Shown here piece after piece: positions 9,051 to 44,076 of a stretch of 44,231 nt of DNA. The translations under genes and the position numbers were made by a program. The stretch spans positions 1 through 44,231 of the forward strand of contig PEWX01000052.1 in NCBI GenBank assembly GCA_002779995.1, in the 5' to 3' direction. A model generated the notes under the pieces. That model did not search any database. It worked only from the letters and a program-made list of their open reading frames with translations, and was not told the origin of the DNA. Each line of letters starts with the position of its first letter. Position 1 is the first letter of the stretch. This stretch comes from Piscirickettsiaceae bacterium CG07_land_8_20_14_0_80_44_28. GTDB taxonomy: Bacteria; Pseudomonadota; Gammaproteobacteria; Thiomicrospirales; Thiomicrospiraceae.

Positions 9051-9068
9051 CCCACTTAAAACAAAAAA

Positions 9069-9086
9069 CCGCCCAGGCCTGGGCGG
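9069..9086. terminator. terminator built on CCAGGCCTGG (copy 3)
   Basis: An 18-bp perfect palindrome, CCGCCCAGGCCTGGGCGG. The core is 9073-9082. On the minus strand it is followed by TTTTTTGTTTT, so it is a strong terminator for ffh; on the plus strand by CTTT. Confidence 0.85.
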
Positions 9087-9109
9087 CTTTAACGGGGTTT
9101 CGCGAGTCT

Positions 9110-11591: not shown

Positions 11592-12878
11592 TTGAACAGT
11601 CTGCCTATTTCTGTACTCTTTATCATCCTTGGTTTGATGGTGATTTTATCTGCCTTATTTTCCAGTTCCGAAACTGGAATGATGGCGCTAAATAAGTACC
11701 GCCTTAAACACAAAGTGAAACAAGGTCATAAAGGTGCCATCAAAGCGCAAAAACTCCTTAAAAAGCCCGACCGCTTACTCGGGGTTATTTTACTGGGTAA
11801 TAATTTTGTCAATATCTTTGCATCTTCTATTGCCACCATTATCGCCATGCGCCTGATGGGTGAAGCGGGTATTGCACTGGCCGCCGGGATATTGACCTTG
11901 GTTATTTTAATTTTTGCTGAGGTGGCGCCGAAAACCTTAGCGGCACTCTACCCTGAAAAAATTGCCTTTCCTGCCGCCTATGTGCTTGATCCGCTGTTAA
12001 AGCTTCTGTCACCACTGGTTTGGTTTGTGAACTTTTTCGCCAATAATTTTCTACGACTTTTTGGTGTCAAGGTCAAACATCAAGACAGCGATCAACATGC
12101 TTTAAGCAAAGAGGAACTACAAACCTTAATCAATGAAGCCACGGGTCGACTGCCAAAACATTATCGCAGCATGCTGACGGGTATTATGCAACTTGAAACC
12201 ATTACCGTTGAAGATGTGATGATTCCAAAACAAGATATTTACGGTATTGATGTCAATGAGCCACTGGATACGATCGTAAAACGCATTATGAAATCGCCAT
12301 TTACGCGCATTCCGGTTTACCGTGACAATATGGATGATGAACTGATTGGCATCATTAATTTACGCAAAATGCTACCCATATTAACGAAACCTAATCTCTC
12401 CTTAAAGGACATTATAAAAGCGACCAGGCCTGGCTATTTTATTCCGGAAACGACCACTTTGAATATTCAGCTATCTAAATTTAATAAACATAAACGACAT
12501 ATGGCTTTAATTGTTGATGAATACGGCAATCTTCAAGGGCTACTGACACTGGAAGACCTTTTGGAAGAAATCGTTGGCAAGTTCACGACGGATAACCGTG
12601 AAAAGATTTTTAACACCATTAAAACGCACAAAGACGGCTCAATTACCTTTGATGCCTCTGAATTCATTCGTGATGTGAATAAAACCTATCAGTTTGACCT
12701 ACCCACGGATGGCCCGAAAACATTAAACGGTTTGATTCAAGAAGAACTTGAGACCCTTCCGGCTGAAGGCACCTGCCTCAAAATTGGCAACTATACAATA
12801 GAAGTCGTAGAAACATCGAATCACGCCATTGAACAGATAAAACTTAAAGAGATTGATCCGTCCCTTCGATTTAAATAA
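11592..12878 (+). CDS. corB: CNNM/CorB-family membrane protein with CBS domains (YfjD-like)
   Basis: 428 residues. N-terminal CNNM/DUF21 membrane domain (about 1-180: LPISVLFIILGLMVILSALF, SSSETGMMALNKYRLKH), then two CBS domains (about 200-330, with VMIPKQDIYGIDV and ALIVDEYGNLQGLLTLEDLL) and a CorC/HlyC C-terminal domain. Relatives act in Mg2+/Co2+ efflux or tolerance. The start codon appears to be TTG at 11592, because the family N-terminus begins exactly here. No Shine-Dalgarno is present; instead a three-codon ORF (ATG TCA TTT TGA, 11584-11595) overlaps the TTG. One CCAGGCCTGG copy lies inside the second CBS region. Confidence 0.9.
   Translation: MNSLPISVLFIILGLMVILSALFSSSETGMMALNKYRLKHKVKQGHKGAIKAQKLLKKPDRLLGVILLGNNFVNIFASSIATIIAMRLMGEAGIALAAGILTLVILIFAEVAPKTLAALYPEKIAFPAAYVLDPLLKLLSPLVWFVNFFANNFLRLFGVKVKHQDSDQHALSKEELQTLINEATGRLPKHYRSMLTGIMQLETITVEDVMIPKQDIYGIDVNEPLDTIVKRIMKSPFTRIPVYRDNMDDELIGIINLRKMLPILTKPNLSLKDIIKATRPGYFIPETTTLNIQLSKFNKHKRHMALIVDEYGNLQGLLTLEDLLEEIVGKFTTDNREKIFNTIKTHKDGSITFDASEFIRDVNKTYQFDLPTDGPKTLNGLIQEELETLPAEGTCLKIGNYTIEVVETSNHAIEQIKLKEIDPSLRFK
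12424..12433. repeat. palindrome CCAGGCCTGG, copy 4, inside corB
   Basis: Exact core within the coding sequence, encoding part of Thr-Arg-Pro-Gly-Tyr-Phe. Its flanks do not extend the palindrome and it is followed by CTA and TTTT, as in the copies at 293 and 1425. Being in a gene, it cannot be explained as a terminator. Confidence 0.9.
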
Positions 12879-13701: not shown

Positions 13702-13706
13702 GCCAA

Positions 13707-13726
13707 TTTAACCAGGCCTGGTTAAA
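13707..13726. repeat. 20-bp palindrome built on CCAGGCCTGG (copy 5)
   Basis: TTTAACCAGGCCTGGTTAAA, core 13712-13721, between two converging genes. It has no T-tract directly after the stem on either strand, so if it terminates transcription it is a poor intrinsic terminator. It is preceded on the minus strand by T6. Confidence 0.8.
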
Positions 13727-13729
13727 AAA

Positions 13730-17928: not shown

Positions 17929-18669
17929 CTAAACGGGGTTGGGAATATTGATAAATTTTACATCTAATGAAAACTTTTGTGCCAAATGCTGCCCAAGCGC
18001 TTCAACACCAAAGGTTTCCGTTGCATGATGACCGGCAGCCAAATAATGAATTCCGCTTTCCGTTGCTAGGTGAGTTGTTTGCTCTGACACTTCTCCACTA
18101 ATATAAACATCTGCTTGCCAATCGATTGCCGTTTGTATTCCACCTTGTGCCCCGCCACTACACCAAGCCACGGTATTGATCTTCTCTGGGCCGCCCGGAA
18201 GATGCAAAGGAGGCCGCTGTAATGTGTGTTCAACGCGTCGAATAAAACGGTCTATTGTCACTGGCTCAACCAGCTTCCCTAAGCGAATCAAACCAGAATC
18301 CGGCGTGATATCTTCAAGCCCCCATTGCTTAGCCAACTGGGCATTATTTCCGACTTGTGGATGCGCATCCAACGGCAAGTGATAACCCAACAAGTTTATG
18401 TCATTCATCAACAGGCTTTTAATGCGTTTTTGCTTCATTCCAACGATCGGGAGCGGTTCATTTTTCCAGAAAAAGCCATGATGAACAATCATTGCATCTG
18501 CATCCTGCTCAATAGCCGCATCAATCAAAGCTTGGCAAGCCGTCACGCCAGTGACAATTGTATGCACATCTTGTTTGCCCGAAACTTGCAAGCCATTCGG
18601 GGTATAATCTTTAAACGCTGCAACCTGTAAAAAATCATTTAAATATTTAACGAGTGCGTCAATCTGCAT
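17929..18669 (-). CDS. Nif3-like dinuclear metal-centre protein (YbgI family)
   Basis: 246 residues from the ATG at 18669, which has AGGAGAAAGG upstream. The family motifs are present: TPNGLQVSG near the N-terminus, the metal-binding DADAMIVHHGFFW and the C-terminal YLAAGHHATETFGVEAL. Relatives form toroidal hexamers with a two-metal site; the reaction is debated (a GTP cyclohydrolase-like or nucleotide-handling role has been suggested). The ORF extends 16 codons further upstream, but that part lacks family sequence. A position near hisGD and petABC is typical for the group. Confidence 0.9.
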   Translation of the reverse strand: MQIDALVKYLNDFLQVAAFKDYTPNGLQVSGKQDVHTIVTGVTACQALIDAAIEQDADAMIVHHGFFWKNEPLPIVGMKQKRIKSLLMNDINLLGYHLPLDAHPQVGNNAQLAKQWGLEDITPDSGLIRLGKLVEPVTIDRFIRRVEHTLQRPPLHLPGGPEKINTVAWCSGGAQGGIQTAIDWQADVYISGEVSEQTTHLATESGIHYLAAGHHATETFGVEALGQHLAQKFSLDVKFINIPNPV

Positions 18670-18694
18670 CCTTTCTCCTAAGGTCTTTAGGTAA

Positions 18695-18722
18695 AAAAAA
18701 TGACCAGGCCTGGTCATTTTTT
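18695..18722 (-). terminator. terminator built on CCAGGCCTGG (copy 6), after hisD
   Basis: A 28-bp perfect palindrome: core 18704-18713, inner arms TGA/TCA, outer arms A6/T6. On the minus strand a T8 run follows the stem. It ends the his transcript 27 bases beyond the hisD stop. Confidence 0.88.
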
Positions 18723-18749: not shown

Positions 18750-20051
18750 TTACGGCTTAACACGATAACGCGCTGAAGCGGCATGCGCGTGCAAACCTTC
18801 TCCATCGGCCAAAACACCGGCCACTGTTCCTAAGCCGTTGGCTCCTTCAGCAGAACACATAATCAAGCTAGATCGCTTTTGAAAATCAGGCACACCTAAT
18901 GGTGAAGAAAAGCGAGCGGTTCGTGATGTTGGTAATACGTGATTGGGCCCTGCACAATAGTCCCCCAAGGCTTCAGCGGTATAGCGCCCCATAAAAATCG
19001 CACCGGCATGACGAATTTTAGGCAATAAAGCTTCGGGATCTTCTATTGATAGCTCTAAATGCTCCGGGGCAATCTTATTAATCATGTCTATCGCTTGCGC
19101 TTCATCTTGAACCACAATCACCGCACCCCGATCATTAATGGCTTTGGCAATAATATCTGCACGAGGTAAAGTGGTGATAAGACGATTCATACTATCAATA
19201 ACTTGATCTGCAAAGACTTCATTTTCAGTCACCAAAATGGATTGCGCGTCCTCATCATGCTCCGCCTGCGAGAATAAGTCCATAGCAATCCAGTCCGGGT
19301 TTGTTTGTCCATCACAATAAACTAAGATTTCAGAAGGCCCCGCAATCATATCAATGCCCACGGTTCCAAAAACTTCTCTTTTCGCTGTCGCCACAAAAAT
19401 ATTACCAGGCCCCACAATTTTATCAACCGCCGGCACGGTTTCTGTACCGTAAGCCAATGCAGCAACCGCTTGTGCGCCGCCCAATGTAAACACACGGTCA
19501 ACACCACAAATCGCAGCGGCAGCCAAGACCATATCATTGACTTCTCCATCAGGCGTTGGGACAACCATAATCAACTCTTTAACACCGGCTACTTTTGCAG
19601 GCATGGCATTCATAATCACGGAAGATGGATAGGCGGCTTTGCCACCCGGAACATAAAGCCCGACACGATCCAAACACGTCACCTGTTGACCTAATAAAGT
19701 TCCATCCGCTTCAACATAAGACCAAGATTGCGAAACCTGTCTTTGGTGATAAGCTTTCACCCGTTCGGCAGAAAACTCAAGGCCATTGCGTTGATCTTCA
19801 GGAATGCGTGCTAATGCAGCTTTCAATTCAGCCTGTGGTATCTCTAACTGGTCTGCACTCGTTAGCGTTAAACGATCGAATTTAGCCGTATACTCTAATA
19901 ATGCGGCATCCCCTTTTTCACGGACTGCTTTTAGGATTTCTTTAACAATAACATTGACCGATTCATTGGAAACGGTTTCCCAAGCCAATAGGGTATCTAA
20001 TTGCGCTTCAAAGCCCTCTGCATTGGCAGAAATTTTTTTAATATTTAACAT
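18750..20051 (-). CDS. hisD: histidinol dehydrogenase
   Basis: 433 residues, the normal length. Diagnostic segments are [10 protein letters not shown], the [20 protein letters not shown] loop, the NAD-binding-like [15 protein letters not shown] with DKIVGPGNI, the zinc-site AEHDEDAQS region and the C-terminal [10 protein letters not shown]. It catalyses the last two steps of histidine synthesis, histidinol to histidine, with Zn2+ and NAD+. It follows hisG by 20 bases. No hisC follows, unlike the common gammaproteobacterial order hisG-hisD-hisC. Confidence 0.97.
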
Positions 20052-23006: not shown

Positions 23007-23935
23007 TATTCCACCTCGCCCGTTAAGTCTAAGAACACTTCTTCAAGGGTGGCGTTTCGACTGGTTAAATCTTGAACATCAAACCCCGCATCGGATAACC
23101 ACCCTAACATCGAATTCAACGGCATGTCCTTTTCCAACCTAAACAATACGCCATTCACATCCTGCTCGACATACCGCTGCTGCAAAACAACCGGAAGCTG
23201 ATTGACCAAAAATTGATGGGTTGCAGACGGTATCACTCTTAGATAACGATACTGATGGCGAGAAATTAATTCCGAGGTGGTTTCCAATGCTTTTAAATTA
23301 CCGGACTTCAGAATGGCCACCTCTTCACATAACGCTTCGGCTTCCTCTAAATAATGGGTTGTCAAAATAATGGTATGGCCTTTTTTATGGAGATCTTTGG
23401 TAAATTCCCAGAGCGTTTTGCGTAGGTCAACATCCACCCCGGCGGTTGGTTCATCCAACACCAATACCTGTGGCTGGTGCACCAACGCCATTGCAATCAA
23501 GACTCGGCGCTTCATTCCGCCAGATAATTCATGCGTTAATGCATTGCGTTTGTCTGACAAAGCCAAGCGGGACAGCAACTCATCAATCCATTTGGCTTGC
23601 GCCCGCCCTTTTAATCCAAAATAACCACCTTGAATGGTTAATAAATCTTGAATGGAAAAAAAGGGATCTGAAATAAGTTCTTGAGGCACAACGCCCAAGG
23701 TTCGCCTTGCCTGACGATAATCTTTAACCACATCATGACCATTAACTTGAATCGTGCCGGAAGTCGGCTTAACCAATCCTGCCATGGTATTGATTAAAGT
23801 CGACTTTCCTGCTCCATTCGGGCCTAAAAGCCCAAAAAAACAACCAGGCCTGACATCAAAAGAAATCGACTTTAACGCCGATAACTCACCATATTGTTTA
23901 TGAACAGATTGAAAAGATACGGCCGGGGTATGCAT
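23006..23935 (-). CDS. ABC transporter ATP-binding protein (YadG-like)
   Basis: 309 residues. Walker A is [14 protein letters not shown], the Q-loop follows at VVPQELISDPFFS, the signature is LSGGMKRRVLIAMALVHQP and Walker B is VLVLDEPTAGVD, with the H-loop in ILTTHYLEEAE. A C-terminal extension (about 220-309) is typical of drug/lipid exporter ATPases of the ABC-2 type. It acts with the permease downstream. A near-match to the palindrome (CCAGGCCTGA, 23844-23853) lies within it. The gene follows mlaB by 54 bases. Confidence 0.9.
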   Translation of the reverse strand: MHTPAVSFQSVHKQYGELSALKSISFDVRPGCFFGLLGPNGAGKSTLINTMAGLVKPTSGTIQVNGHDVVKDYRQARRTLGVVPQELISDPFFSIQDLLTIQGGYFGLKGRAQAKWIDELLSRLALSDKRNALTHELSGGMKRRVLIAMALVHQPQVLVLDEPTAGVDVDLRKTLWEFTKDLHKKGHTIILTTHYLEEAEALCEEVAILKSGNLKALETTSELISRHQYRYLRVIPSATHQFLVNQLPVVLQQRYVEQDVNGVLFRLEKDMPLNSMLGWLSDAGFDVQDLTSRNATLEEVFLDLTGEVE

Positions 23936-30718: not shown

Positions 30719-31441
30719 ATGGCACATTTTTATGCCCGAAACCTCGCTAAAAGCTACAAACGTCGTCCTGTCGTTAGCTCTGTGGATCTAGATGTTGAAA
30801 GCGGGCAAGTTGTCGGCTTGCTTGGCCCCAATGGGGCAGGCAAAACCACCACCTTTTACATGATGACAGGCCTGGTAAAAAATGATGCCGGAGAAATCTA
30901 CTTAGATGACGAAGAGATCAGCCAAAAAACCATCGATCAAAGAGCCAAAATGGGGATTGGCTACTTACCACAAGAAGCTTCAGTTTTTCGTAAGCTCACC
31001 GTCAAGCAAAATATCTTAGCCATATTAGAAATGCGTGATGATATAAACGAAGCTGAAAAGTGGCAACACTATGAGTCCCTTGTTGATGACCTACAAATTT
31101 CTCACATTACAACTCAACTAGGTCAAGCCCTGTCTGGTGGAGAACGCCGCCGTGTTGAAATTGCCCGTGCTTTAGCGATGGAGCCAAACTTTATTTTGCT
31201 TGATGAACCCTTTGCGGGCGTTGACCCCATTTCGGTAAAAGACATTCAAAGCATCATCCTTCACCTCAAAATGAAAGGTATTGGTGTGTTGATCACAGAT
31301 CATAATGTACGAGAGACTTTAGGCGTGTGTGACCAAGCCTACATCCTGCATGCAGGAACCATTTTAGCACATGGCGCCCCCCATGAAATCCTCGCAAATC
31401 CTGATGTAAAACGGGTATATCTTGGAGACAATTTCAAGTAA
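30719..31441 (+). CDS. lptB: LPS export ABC ATPase LptB
   Basis: 240 residues. Walker [21 protein letters not shown], signature [19 protein letters not shown], Walker [15 protein letters not shown]-loop [11 protein letters not shown]. This is the canonical LptB. It powers LPS extraction by LptFG. It starts 3 bases after lptA. A near-match to the palindrome (ACAGGCCTGG, 30866-30875) lies in the Met-Thr-Gly-Leu codons. The gene that usually follows, rpoN, is missing. Confidence 0.97.
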
Positions 31442-33858: not shown

Positions 33859-35436
33859 TTAATGTTCGCGAATCGCAACAAACTGTAATTTAGGCCACCT
33901 TTCCTCCATTAAACTTAAATTCACCCGAGTTGGCGCAATATAAACCAACTGGTCAGCCGCATCATAAGCCACATTATCTTTAACTTTTGACAAAAATTGA
34001 TCAATTTCTGCTGAGTCGCCTAAAACCCAACGGGCGGTACTGACATTCACCGGCTCGAAAAAACAACTCACATTGTATTCGTCCTTTAAACGTTGCGCGA
34101 CCACTTCAAACTGCAAAATGCCCACCGCCCCCAAAATCAAATCATTATTACTAATAGGGCGAAACAATTGCGTAGCCCCTTCTTCAGACAGCTGTGTCAA
34201 GCCTTTCTGAAGGGCTTTCATTTTCATGGGGTCTTTCAATTGCGCACGGCGAAATAATTCAGGTGCAAAGTTGGGAATACCAACAAACTTTAACACCTCG
34301 TCTTCTGAAAAAGTATCCCCAATTTTGATGGTGCCATGATTGTGCAAGCCAATAATATCTCCAGGAAAGGCTTGCTCAGCTTGGTCGCGTCTATTCGCCA
34401 AAAAAGTAATCGCTTTAGAAATTTTGACATCCTTACCAATGCGAACATGTTTTAAGGTCATGCCCTTTTGATACTGCCCGGAAACAATGCGCATAAACGC
34501 GACTCTATCTCGATGTTTCGGATCCATATTTGCTTGAATTTTAAAAATAAACCCGGTTAACTTAGGCTCGTTTGCCGAGACAAACCGCTGTTTCGCCTCA
34601 CGCCCAACAGGAGCCGGCGCGTAATCTGCAAAACCATCTAATAACTCTTGCAACCCAAAGTTATTCACCGCTGAACCGAAAAAGACCGGGGTCAGTTCCC
34701 CCTTAAGAAAAGCATCCAAATCAAAAGTATGACTCGCCCCTTTTACCAGCTCGATTTCATCCCTTAATTCACTCGCCAAACCTGAACCGATTTTTTCATC
34801 CAATTCAGGGTTATCAATCCCTTGAATTATTTCCCCCGCAGAGGCATTTAAACCATCTGCCGATTCAAATAGTCGAATCCTATCATTCAATAGATGATAA
34901 ATCCCTTTAAAACGCTTGCCCATACCAATCGGCCAAGTCATTGGCGCACAGGCAATATTCAGAACCGATTCAACCTCATCCAGTAACTCAATCGGCTCTT
35001 TACCCTCTCTATCCAATTTATTAATAAACGTTAGAATAGGCGTATCCCTTAAACGACAAACTTCCATTAATTTAATGGTACGATCCTCAACCCCTTTCGC
35101 AACATCAATAACCATCAAAGCAGAGTCAACTGCGGTTAAGGTTCGATAGGTATCTTCTGAAAAGTCTTCATGGCCGGGCGTGTCCAATAAATTAATCATC
35201 ACCTCTTTATAGGGAAACTGCATCACCGACGAGGCAACAGAGATGCCTCTTTCCTGCTCCATTTTCATCCAATCAGATGTCGCTGCACGATCTGTTTTCC
35301 GACTTTTAACTGCACCCGCCATCTGAATGGCGCCCCCATAAAGCAGCAACTTTTCCGTAACCGTGGTTTTACCCGCATCCGGGTGAGAAATAATTGCAAA
35401 GGTGCGTCTTCGATTGGTTTCAAGCTGGAGCGACAT
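33859..35436 (-). CDS. prfC: peptide chain release factor 3
   Basis: 525 residues. GTPase motifs: G1 [17 protein letters not shown]2/G3 [13 protein letters not shown] and [17 protein letters not shown]4 [10 protein letters not shown]. The domain order and the ending fit RF3 rather than EF-G. It removes RF1/RF2 from the ribosome after termination. A -10 (TATAAT, plus 35499-35504) places its transcript start near 35492, so the palindrome at 35472-35487 lies at the very 5' end of the mRNA. Confidence 0.96.
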
Positions 35437-35471
35437 ATCGTGCCTTTTAAAGTCAAAAATGATGAGAAAAA

Positions 35472-35487
35472 TGGCCAGGCCTGGCTA
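35472..35487. repeat. palindrome CCAGGCCTGG (copy 7) at the 5' end of the prfC mRNA
   Basis: Core 35475-35484, extended to TGGCCAGGCCTGGCTA with one G-T pair. On the minus strand it is followed by CCATTTTT. It lies about 5-20 nt inside the predicted prfC transcript, where a terminator of a preceding gene is not expected. Confidence 0.85.
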
Positions 35488-35498
35488 ATTTTGAAGGC

Positions 35499-35769: not shown

Positions 35770-35840
35770 ATAAGGCAACCCGGCCATCTCATAGAGACCC
35801 GTGGCTTTCTGTCTTCGCCTCGCGACGAATTTAGCTTTAT
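35770..35840 (-). promoter_or_regulatory. c-di-GMP-I (GEMM) riboswitch aptamer
   Basis: Read on the minus strand: closing helix ATAAAGC (plus 35834-35840) with GCCTTAT (plus 35770-35776), one mismatch; then TAAA; hairpin TTCGTC-GCGA-GGCGAA with a GNRA tetraloop; then GACAGAAAGCCACGGG, corresponding to the family's GACGCAAAGCCACGGG; hairpin GTCTC-TAT-GAGAT; and GGCCGGGTTGCC, corresponding to the conserved end of the class. Architecture and order match GEMM-I; the GCAAAG core is changed to AGAAAG here. Ligand binding is inferred from the family, not shown. Confidence 0.75.
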
Positions 35841-35845
35841 CAAAT

Positions 35846-38245: not shown

Positions 38246-38275
38246 CCAAAAACCACCAGGCCTGGTGGTTTTTGG
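38246..38275 (-). terminator. terminator built on CCAGGCCTGG (copy 8), after rpoD
   Basis: A 30-bp perfect palindrome, core 38256-38265, with arms CCAAAAACCA and TGGTTTTTGG. On the minus strand a T7 run follows 6 bases later. It lies 82 bases beyond the rpoD stop. Between the tRNA and the baeS start (38009-38150) I see no gene. Confidence 0.88.
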
Positions 38276-42983: not shown

Positions 42984-44042
42984 ATGCAACCCACCCCCTC
43001 TACACGCGCGCAAATTACCCTCGGTATTGAAACCTCCTGCGATGAAACCGGCATTGCCCTCTATCACTCACAAAAAGGCCTATTAGCACACAGCCTCTAC
43101 AGCCAAATCCCATTACACGCCGAATATGGGGGAGTCGTTCCTGAACTAGCCTCAAGAGACCATATTCATAGGATTGTGCCCCTCATCCGCGAAACCCTTG
43201 AAAAGGCCAATATCGCAACAACCGATATTAGTGGCATTGCCTACACTGCCGGCCCCGGCCTAATGGGTGCACTGTTATCCGGCGCATCGGTTGCCAGAAG
43301 CCTTGCCTTTGCTTGGAAAATTCCCGCAGTGGGCGTGCATCATTTAGAAGGCCATCTACTCGCCCCCATGCTAGAAGAAAGCCCTCCGGCATTCCCCTTT
43401 GTCTGTCTATTAATCTCTGGCGGCCACACCATGATCATCCGAGTCGATGGCATCGGTCGCTATCAACGATTGGGCGACACCTTAGACGATGCCGCAGGCG
43501 AAGCCTTCGACAAAACCGCCAAAATGCTCGGGCTTGGCTATCCCGGCGGCCCGGAAATTTCAAAAAGAGCCCTAACCGGCAACCCAGACCGTTATCGTTT
43601 TCCCAGGCCAATGGTCGATCGCCCGGGGCTAGACATGAGTTTCAGCGGCTTAAAAACCTATAGCCTAAACACCTGGCTAAAAGCCAAAGAAGCAGGCGAT
43701 GAAAGTGAACAAACCAAAGCCGACATTTGCCGCGCCTTTGAATTAGCCGTTGCCGACACCTTAAAAATCAAATGCAAACGCGCACTAGACCAAACCGGAT
43801 TAAACCGTCTCGTGGTATCCGGTGGCGTCAGTGCCAACCAAGTCATACGCAGCAAACTCACAAAACTCATGGAAAGCCGTCAAGGCCAAGCCTTTTACCC
43901 AAGACTCGAATTCTGCACCGACAATGGCGCCATGATCGCCTATGCAGGCGCACAACGCCTCGCCGCAAGCCAAAGCTCAGACCTCAACTTCGCCTGCCAC
44001 CCCAGATGGGAACTGGAATCCCTCCCCCCACTTTCCAACTAA
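42984..44042 (+). CDS. tsaD: tRNA threonylcarbamoyladenosine biosynthesis protein TsaD
   Basis: 352 residues from the ATG at 42984, chosen because the family begins with [17 protein letters not shown]. Motifs: [11 protein letters not shown]-type [20 protein letters not shown], the metal-binding [12 protein letters not shown] (H-x-E-G-H), [43 protein letters not shown] and [15 protein letters not shown]. It transfers threonylcarbamoyl from TC-AMP to tRNA A37 with TsaB and TsaE. It is divergent from rpsU, as in many gammaproteobacteria. Confidence 0.97.
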
Positions 44043-44046
44043 AAAA

Positions 44047-44062
44047 TGCCCAGGCCTGGGCA
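44047..44062. terminator. palindrome built on CCAGGCCTGG (copy 9) after tsaD
   Basis: TGCCCAGGCCTGGGCA, core 44050-44059, 4 bases after the tsaD stop. The T-tract (T6) is on the minus side, so it would be a better terminator for a minus-strand transcript arriving from the right than for tsaD. Confidence 0.75.
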
Positions 44063-44076
44063 AAATTTGAGGGTTT

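Follow-up and report, generated by a model that had tools for sequence, protein, structure and literature searches.

A palindromic repeat with A/T-rich flanks and its clade-specific dialects in Hydrogenovibrio and relatives: a likely DNA-uptake recognition sequence

The DNA-uptake sequences USS and DUS follow a published pattern of strict consensus, copies in coding DNA, lack of orientation bias and clade-specific types, with AT-rich flanks in the case of USS (PMC1626085, PMC3630211). The USS of Pasteurellaceae, such as AAGTGCGGT in Haemophilus influenzae and ACAAGCGGT of the Apl type, have a short strict core and AT-rich flanking tracts, and their exact copies, which are both genic and intergenic, far outnumber those with one mismatch (PMC1626085). 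The DUS of Neisseriaceae (GCCGTCTGAA; receptor ComP) form dialects that differ by a few bases and track phylogeny, and inverted arrangements of DUS are tied to terminators (PMC3630211). To our knowledge, DNA-uptake labels of this sort are not known outside these two other bacterial families. A different kind of repeat is found in cyanobacteria, where HIP1 and the alternate HIPs (GCGATCGC) are highly iterated GC-rich palindromes, and some relatives have an alternate palindrome instead (PMC4390886).

The element described here is like these systems in all the respects just named, but differs from each of them in others. Its core, CCAGGCCTGG, is distinct from AAGTGCGGT and ACAAGCGGT, is palindromic and has tracts on both sides, whereas the cores known from USS and DUS are non-palindromic, and DUS moreover have no flanking motif. 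USS and DUS occur roughly once per kb, whereas CCAGGCCTGG has a density of 177 per Mb, or about one per 5.6 kb, and uptake has not been shown here; nor was a ComP-like receptor found. The HIPs accompany matching methyltransferases, whereas our element showed no association with the two methyltransferase families tested, has A/T tracts, and includes the non-palindromic dialects CCAGGTTGGG and CCAGGCTGGG, so that the HIP criterion of being palindromic in all variants is not met. A register of GG-TCA-(A/T)-TTTT is suggestive by eye of kinship to the Haemophilus USS, but alignments of extended USS to the motif were mostly no better than those of shuffled sequences (P 0.04-0.8), and the resemblance is not convincing. 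The DUS criterion of a CTG-containing 10-mer akin to GCCGTCTGAA and recognised by ComP also failed, since the most over-represented 10-mers bear no relation to GCCGTCTGAA. As the similarity to USS is unconvincing, we do not claim USS/DUS membership but functional likeness only.

Abundance and anatomy of the element

The analysed stretch of DNA, hereafter the window, comprises 44,231 nucleotides of contig PEWX01000052.1, and the nearest named relatives of its source genome are Hydrogenovibrio, Thiomicrospira and Thiomicrorhabdus species. We found 9 exact copies of CCAGGCCTGG in the window, and 11 matches with at most one mismatch compared to 0.9 expected, a number that none of 100 shuffles attained. 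The source genome (2.28 Mb, Hydrogenovibrio group) contains 404 exact copies, whereas the reversed-letter control occurs 0 times, and CCAGGCCTGG ranks top among the over-represented 10-mers of the genome sample.

Anatomy and codon statistics were derived from 552 kb of the genome with 97 exact copies. In this sample, 61 of the 97 copies are located in ORFs, and intergenic DNA is enriched, with 36 copies within only 8.6% of the sequence. The core is strict, as only 30 one-mismatch forms were found. Most of these are position-1 variants (22 versus about 2 expected), and the 8 deviants at all other positions are at the chance level of about 7. The half-site AAAAWYRRCCAGG was completed by its counterpart 51 times and left incomplete 4 times.

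The full element spans about 26 bp with the consensus AAAAWYRR-CCAGGCCTGG-YYRWTTTT, and the A/T tracts are found in genic and intergenic copies alike. In ORFs of 200 aa or more, the copies have A at 61-77% in positions -8 to -5 compared to 28% in the background and a C or T at position -3 in 96% of cases, and the flank on the opposite side of the core mirrors this A-tract/pyrimidine pattern. The centre of the A-tract lies about 11.5 bp, or one helical turn, from the dyad.

A symmetric core with A-tracts placed roughly a helical turn away from its dyad would suit a dimeric DNA-binding protein, and it was in principle possible that an abundant intracellular protein of chromosome organisation, recombination or repair initiation requires hundreds of dispersed sites. 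That the sites are dispersed and conserved also speaks for this explanation. Intracellular binding sites usually tolerate mismatches. Against it stand the near-chance frequency of single-base deviants at all positions except position 1 and the existence of entire lineages without any motif. We regard this alternative as unlikely, but it cannot be dismissed.

The copy that drew attention to the element lies in the ORF at 11592-12878 (+), which is corB-like and encodes Pfam CNNM, CBS and CorC_HlyC domains. The extended element occupies 12416-12441, with the A-tract at 12416-12419, the core at 12424-12433 and the T-tract at 12437-12440 placed symmetrically about it, and it is read in the frame T-R-P-G (ACC AGG CCT GGC). 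The initial annotation had reported an exact core in corB with non-palindromic flanks and had argued that terminator function cannot explain this copy. The exact core held. The description of the flanks held only in part, as the core-adjacent bases are indeed unpaired, but the two tracts are symmetric, as at most copies. The exclusion of a terminator at this site also held, because the corB copy folds into no hairpin (z +0.92).

The remaining eight exact copies in the window, which like the corB copy are given without strand, lie in elements of the same 26-bp span, and several intergenic copies fold well. The intergenic element at 285-310 (core 293-302) and the element at 1417-1442 (core 1425-1434) each lie in one unit of a 199-nt direct repeat (251-449 and 1383-1581; 89% identical, 1132 bp apart), which thus has one motif copy per unit; related motif-bearing sequence was also observed at this location in the relatives G005 and G006. 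The elements at 9065-9090 (core 9073-9082) and 13704-13729 (core 13712-13721) are situated between convergent genes; the former also forms a terminator-like hairpin and is conserved in G012, G005 and G006, and the latter is hairpin-capable. A strong symmetric hairpin is formed by the element at 18696-18721 (core 18704-18713), which lies near the 5' end of the ORF at 17929-18717 and adjoins the ORF at 18750-20051, and its core is exact in G010, G015, G009 and G006. We take G012 to be Hydrogenovibrio sp. SC-1 (hereafter SC-1), G006 to be H. halophilus DSM 15072, and G009 to be Thiomicrospira sp. WB1. Three further intergenic elements are found at 35467-35492 (core 35475-35484), conserved in SC-1, at 38248-38273 (core 38256-38265), with a hairpin of 13-bp stem, and at 44042-44067 (core 44050-44059). 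As a separate observation, a c-di-GMP-I-GGC riboswitch aptamer (RF03167) was found at 35770-35844 (-), upstream of the ORF at 33859-35436 (-), whose start resembles peptide release factor 3.

The well-folding intergenic copies and their positions between convergent genes could suggest that the element is a stock hairpin that has spread as an intrinsic terminator. However, an extension of the palindrome by at least 3 pairs is limited to 13 of 36 copies between genes and 6 of 53 in coding DNA, and the copy at 1425, like that in corB, has no stable fold. With the criterion of a GC-rich stem and a T-run located downstream of genes, a minority of copies qualify, as most are genic and stemless. Furthermore, coding copies without arm extension still have A/T tracts: those with unpairable core-adjacent bases have 2.6 of 4 A in the tract compared to 1.1 expected, and the tracts are therefore not terminator T-runs. 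The non-palindromic dialects are unable to form the hairpin at all. Terminator function is thus ruled out as the sole explanation by the coding copies, although a secondary use remains.

Another conceivable source of many copies is a mobile dispersed repeat of the REP or MITE kind, copied by a transposase, and the 199-nt duplication does have two copies of the motif. However, the similarity between copies ends at about 26 bp, the consensus of the flanks is position-specific, unlike that of a copied unit, and where orthologues are aligned, as in corB, the copies prove to have been built into the reading frame by substitutions. This leaves next to no room for such a repeat.

Codon choice and conservation at the copies

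From the encoded amino acids and codon usage, 1.1 in-frame coding copies would be expected in the 552 kb, but 53 were observed, and these are distributed across all three frames. Codon choice is thus bent towards the motif. Of the places at which the peptide is compatible with the motif, 53 of 71 have it, and the motif itself has likely also bent the encoded peptides.

Comparison with SC-1, the nearest relative, supports conservation of the DNA sequence. Its CorB protein is 93% identical, and ACC AGG CCT GG is retained amid the nearby synonymous changes ATA-ATT, GGC-GGT, CCG-CCA and ACG-ACA. In most of the more distant relatives, corB has CGN codons for this Arg-Pro and no exact core. In a 60 kb alignment with 80% DNA identity, 6 of 8 copies of CCAGGCCTGG are intact in SC-1, compared to 12 of 137 control 10-mers of the same composition (9%; P 4e-5); among 10-mers of any composition the intact share is 15%. 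The number of copies is small (n=8).

The initial annotation had also pointed to nine-of-ten matches at 23844-23853 in an ABC ATPase gene and at 30866-30875 in lptB, had proposed that selection acts on the DNA sequence itself, as with uptake signals, and had suggested examining codon choice in relatives. Both positions held. The ABC ATPase match, at 23836-23853 (-) including its single A-tract, is the variant TCAGGCCTGG and belongs to the tolerated position-1 kind; it is identical in SC-1, G005, G010 and G015, and is thus conserved in five species. It is read in the frame V-R-P-G, and a perfect core would turn Val into Ala. The lptB match at 30866-30875 (+), within a stretch encoding M-M-T-G-L-V, was not counted as a copy, because both A/T tracts are missing and it is degraded in SC-1; it probably arose by chance. 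The codon-choice check was passed by corB, since SC-1 keeps the motif amid synonymous change, with the exact core mostly absent in distant relatives. The proposal of selection on the DNA is therefore supported with these refinements, and the uptake function is inferred and not shown.

Dialects across the order

We surveyed 63 genomes of the order, which are the same 63 as in the family. CCAGGCCTGG is present in 234-856 copies in 26 of them, 36 have fewer than 60, and one has 106. Genomes lacking the motif were screened for their own most over-represented motif, and it turned out that species without CCAGGCCTGG can have their own dialect: CCAGGTTGGG is found 364 and 400 times in G008 and G013 and at most 7 times elsewhere, CCAGGCTGGG 326 times in G007 and at most 11 times elsewhere, and ACCGGCCGGT 1025 times in G027 and at most 15 times elsewhere. 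The dialects are mutually exclusive. In G025, G029, G030, G031, G043 and G052, no dialect was found in the 80 kb searched in each, and motif loss therefore probably also happens.

The CCAGGTTGGG and CCAGGCTGGG dialects are both non-palindromic. Their genomes G007, G008 and G013 form one well-supported clade. In these TTGGG and CTGGG dialects, the left half and its A-tract are retained at unchanged spacing (AAAATCTGCCAGG), and the right half is now (C/T)TGGGG. The palindromic form occurs across the other Hydrogenovibrio lineages and in three further genera. Most simply, the ancestor would have been palindromic and this clade would have changed to an asymmetric core; the root of the tree lacks strong resolution.

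We considered a Chi- or KOPS-like role as the main cause and rejected it. Over the first 40% of the genome, the plus-strand sites are evenly spread, with 63 of 166 CCAGGTTGGG sites of G008 and 63 of 142 CCAGGCTGGG sites of G007 in this part. The lack of replichore polarity in the non-palindromic dialects makes such a use unlikely. In G007, CCAGGCTGGG sites are slightly unequal in number between the strands (142 versus 184, P 0.02).

The dialects also bear on the explanation that the motif is a HIP-type palindrome, made and kept by methylation coupled to repair. In its favour, the motif is an iterated GC-rich palindrome, and a relative has an alternate palindrome, as described for HIP1 (PMC4390886). 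However, two dialects are non-palindromic, and the long A/T flank would not be expected at a methylase site. The C5 methyltransferase family PF00145 is present in 8 of 26 motif-rich versus 16 of 36 motif-poor genomes, the N4/N6 methyltransferase family PF01555 in 10 of 26 versus 13 of 36, and 11 motif-rich genomes have neither of these families, the only methylases covered. Altogether, a HIP-type origin is very improbable. A main role of Dcm/Vsr (CCWGG) was likewise rejected, as CCAGG outside the motif was not in excess (452 versus 615).

Some other repeats were also observed. A candidate fifth dialect, ACAGGCCGGGT (AACTCAACAGGCCGGGT-like), occurs 8 times in a 60 kb sample of G023 (L139, L216, L217). 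In G007 (L105-L108) and G005 (L121-L124), GC-rich 10-mers such as GGAGCGTGGA, CTAGGTCTGA and CTAGGTAGAC are strongly repeated in a few bins, and these clusters are likely CRISPR or other repeat arrays.

The uptake reading and its machinery

As the copies, the strict core, the AT flanks, the bent codons, the intergenic enrichment and the clade dialects match the published signature, the uptake reading is the best available. By analogy, the element is likely a DNA-uptake recognition sequence that is comparable to USS and DUS in function, with both uptake and receptor being inferred, and CCAGGCCTGG or the respective dialect would then likely serve as a species label for DNA uptake. On this view, the natural transformation machinery would include a DNA receptor at the cell surface, probably a minor pilin of the type IV pilus, that binds AAAAnnnnCCAGGCCTGGnnnnTTTT and so gives preference to the cell's own kind of DNA. 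As fragments that happen to bear the motif are taken up and recombined again and again, the copies would increase to hundreds and persist at all sites where the genes can accommodate them. Some intergenic copies with symmetric flanks probably double as terminators, like the inverted DUS pairs of Neisseria. All three steps, namely a receptor, a preference in uptake and the drive by recombination, are inferences.

Beyond this, we lean, if only slightly, towards the view that self-recognition uptake sequences evolved independently a third time, as a separate family, in the sulfur-oxidising order of Thiomicrospira, Hydrogenovibrio and Thiomicrorhabdus. The ancestral palindrome would have been readable on either strand; in a single clade the element would have become asymmetric (CCAGGCTGGG, CCAGGTTGGG), with one half-site and its A-tract kept. 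If this is true, such labels evolve beyond animal-associated bacteria, as the third case would be one of free-living chemolithoautotrophs. The series from symmetric to asymmetric dialects within one order would offer a natural system for receptor discovery by co-variation, and lets one ask how an uptake code shifts when hundreds of genomic copies must shift too. In practical terms, the element on donor DNA could aid laboratory transformation of these bacteria.

We found no uptake or transformation data for these organisms in the literature searched. No viral contig with the extended element was found, which is only weak evidence, as viruses of the order are probably little sampled. The gene comEC is present in 57 of the 63 genomes including the source genome, but it does not discriminate, because motif-free genomes and E. 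coli have it too. The source genome also contains a pilus ATPase of the PilT/PilU family, whereas a pilin receptor, PilQ, DprA and ComEA were not established. A receptor search with the GspH/FimT model across the whole order gave only three weak matches, all in the motif-poor genomes G041, G043 and G052 (L201-L203). A pilin-signature search of the source genome identified no receptor and mostly returned pseudopilins of type II secretion. Two unassigned pilin-like proteins with prepilin signatures, encoded at L100:2120-3097 and L167:16931-17551, lie outside the type II secretion cluster and are candidate DNA receptors.
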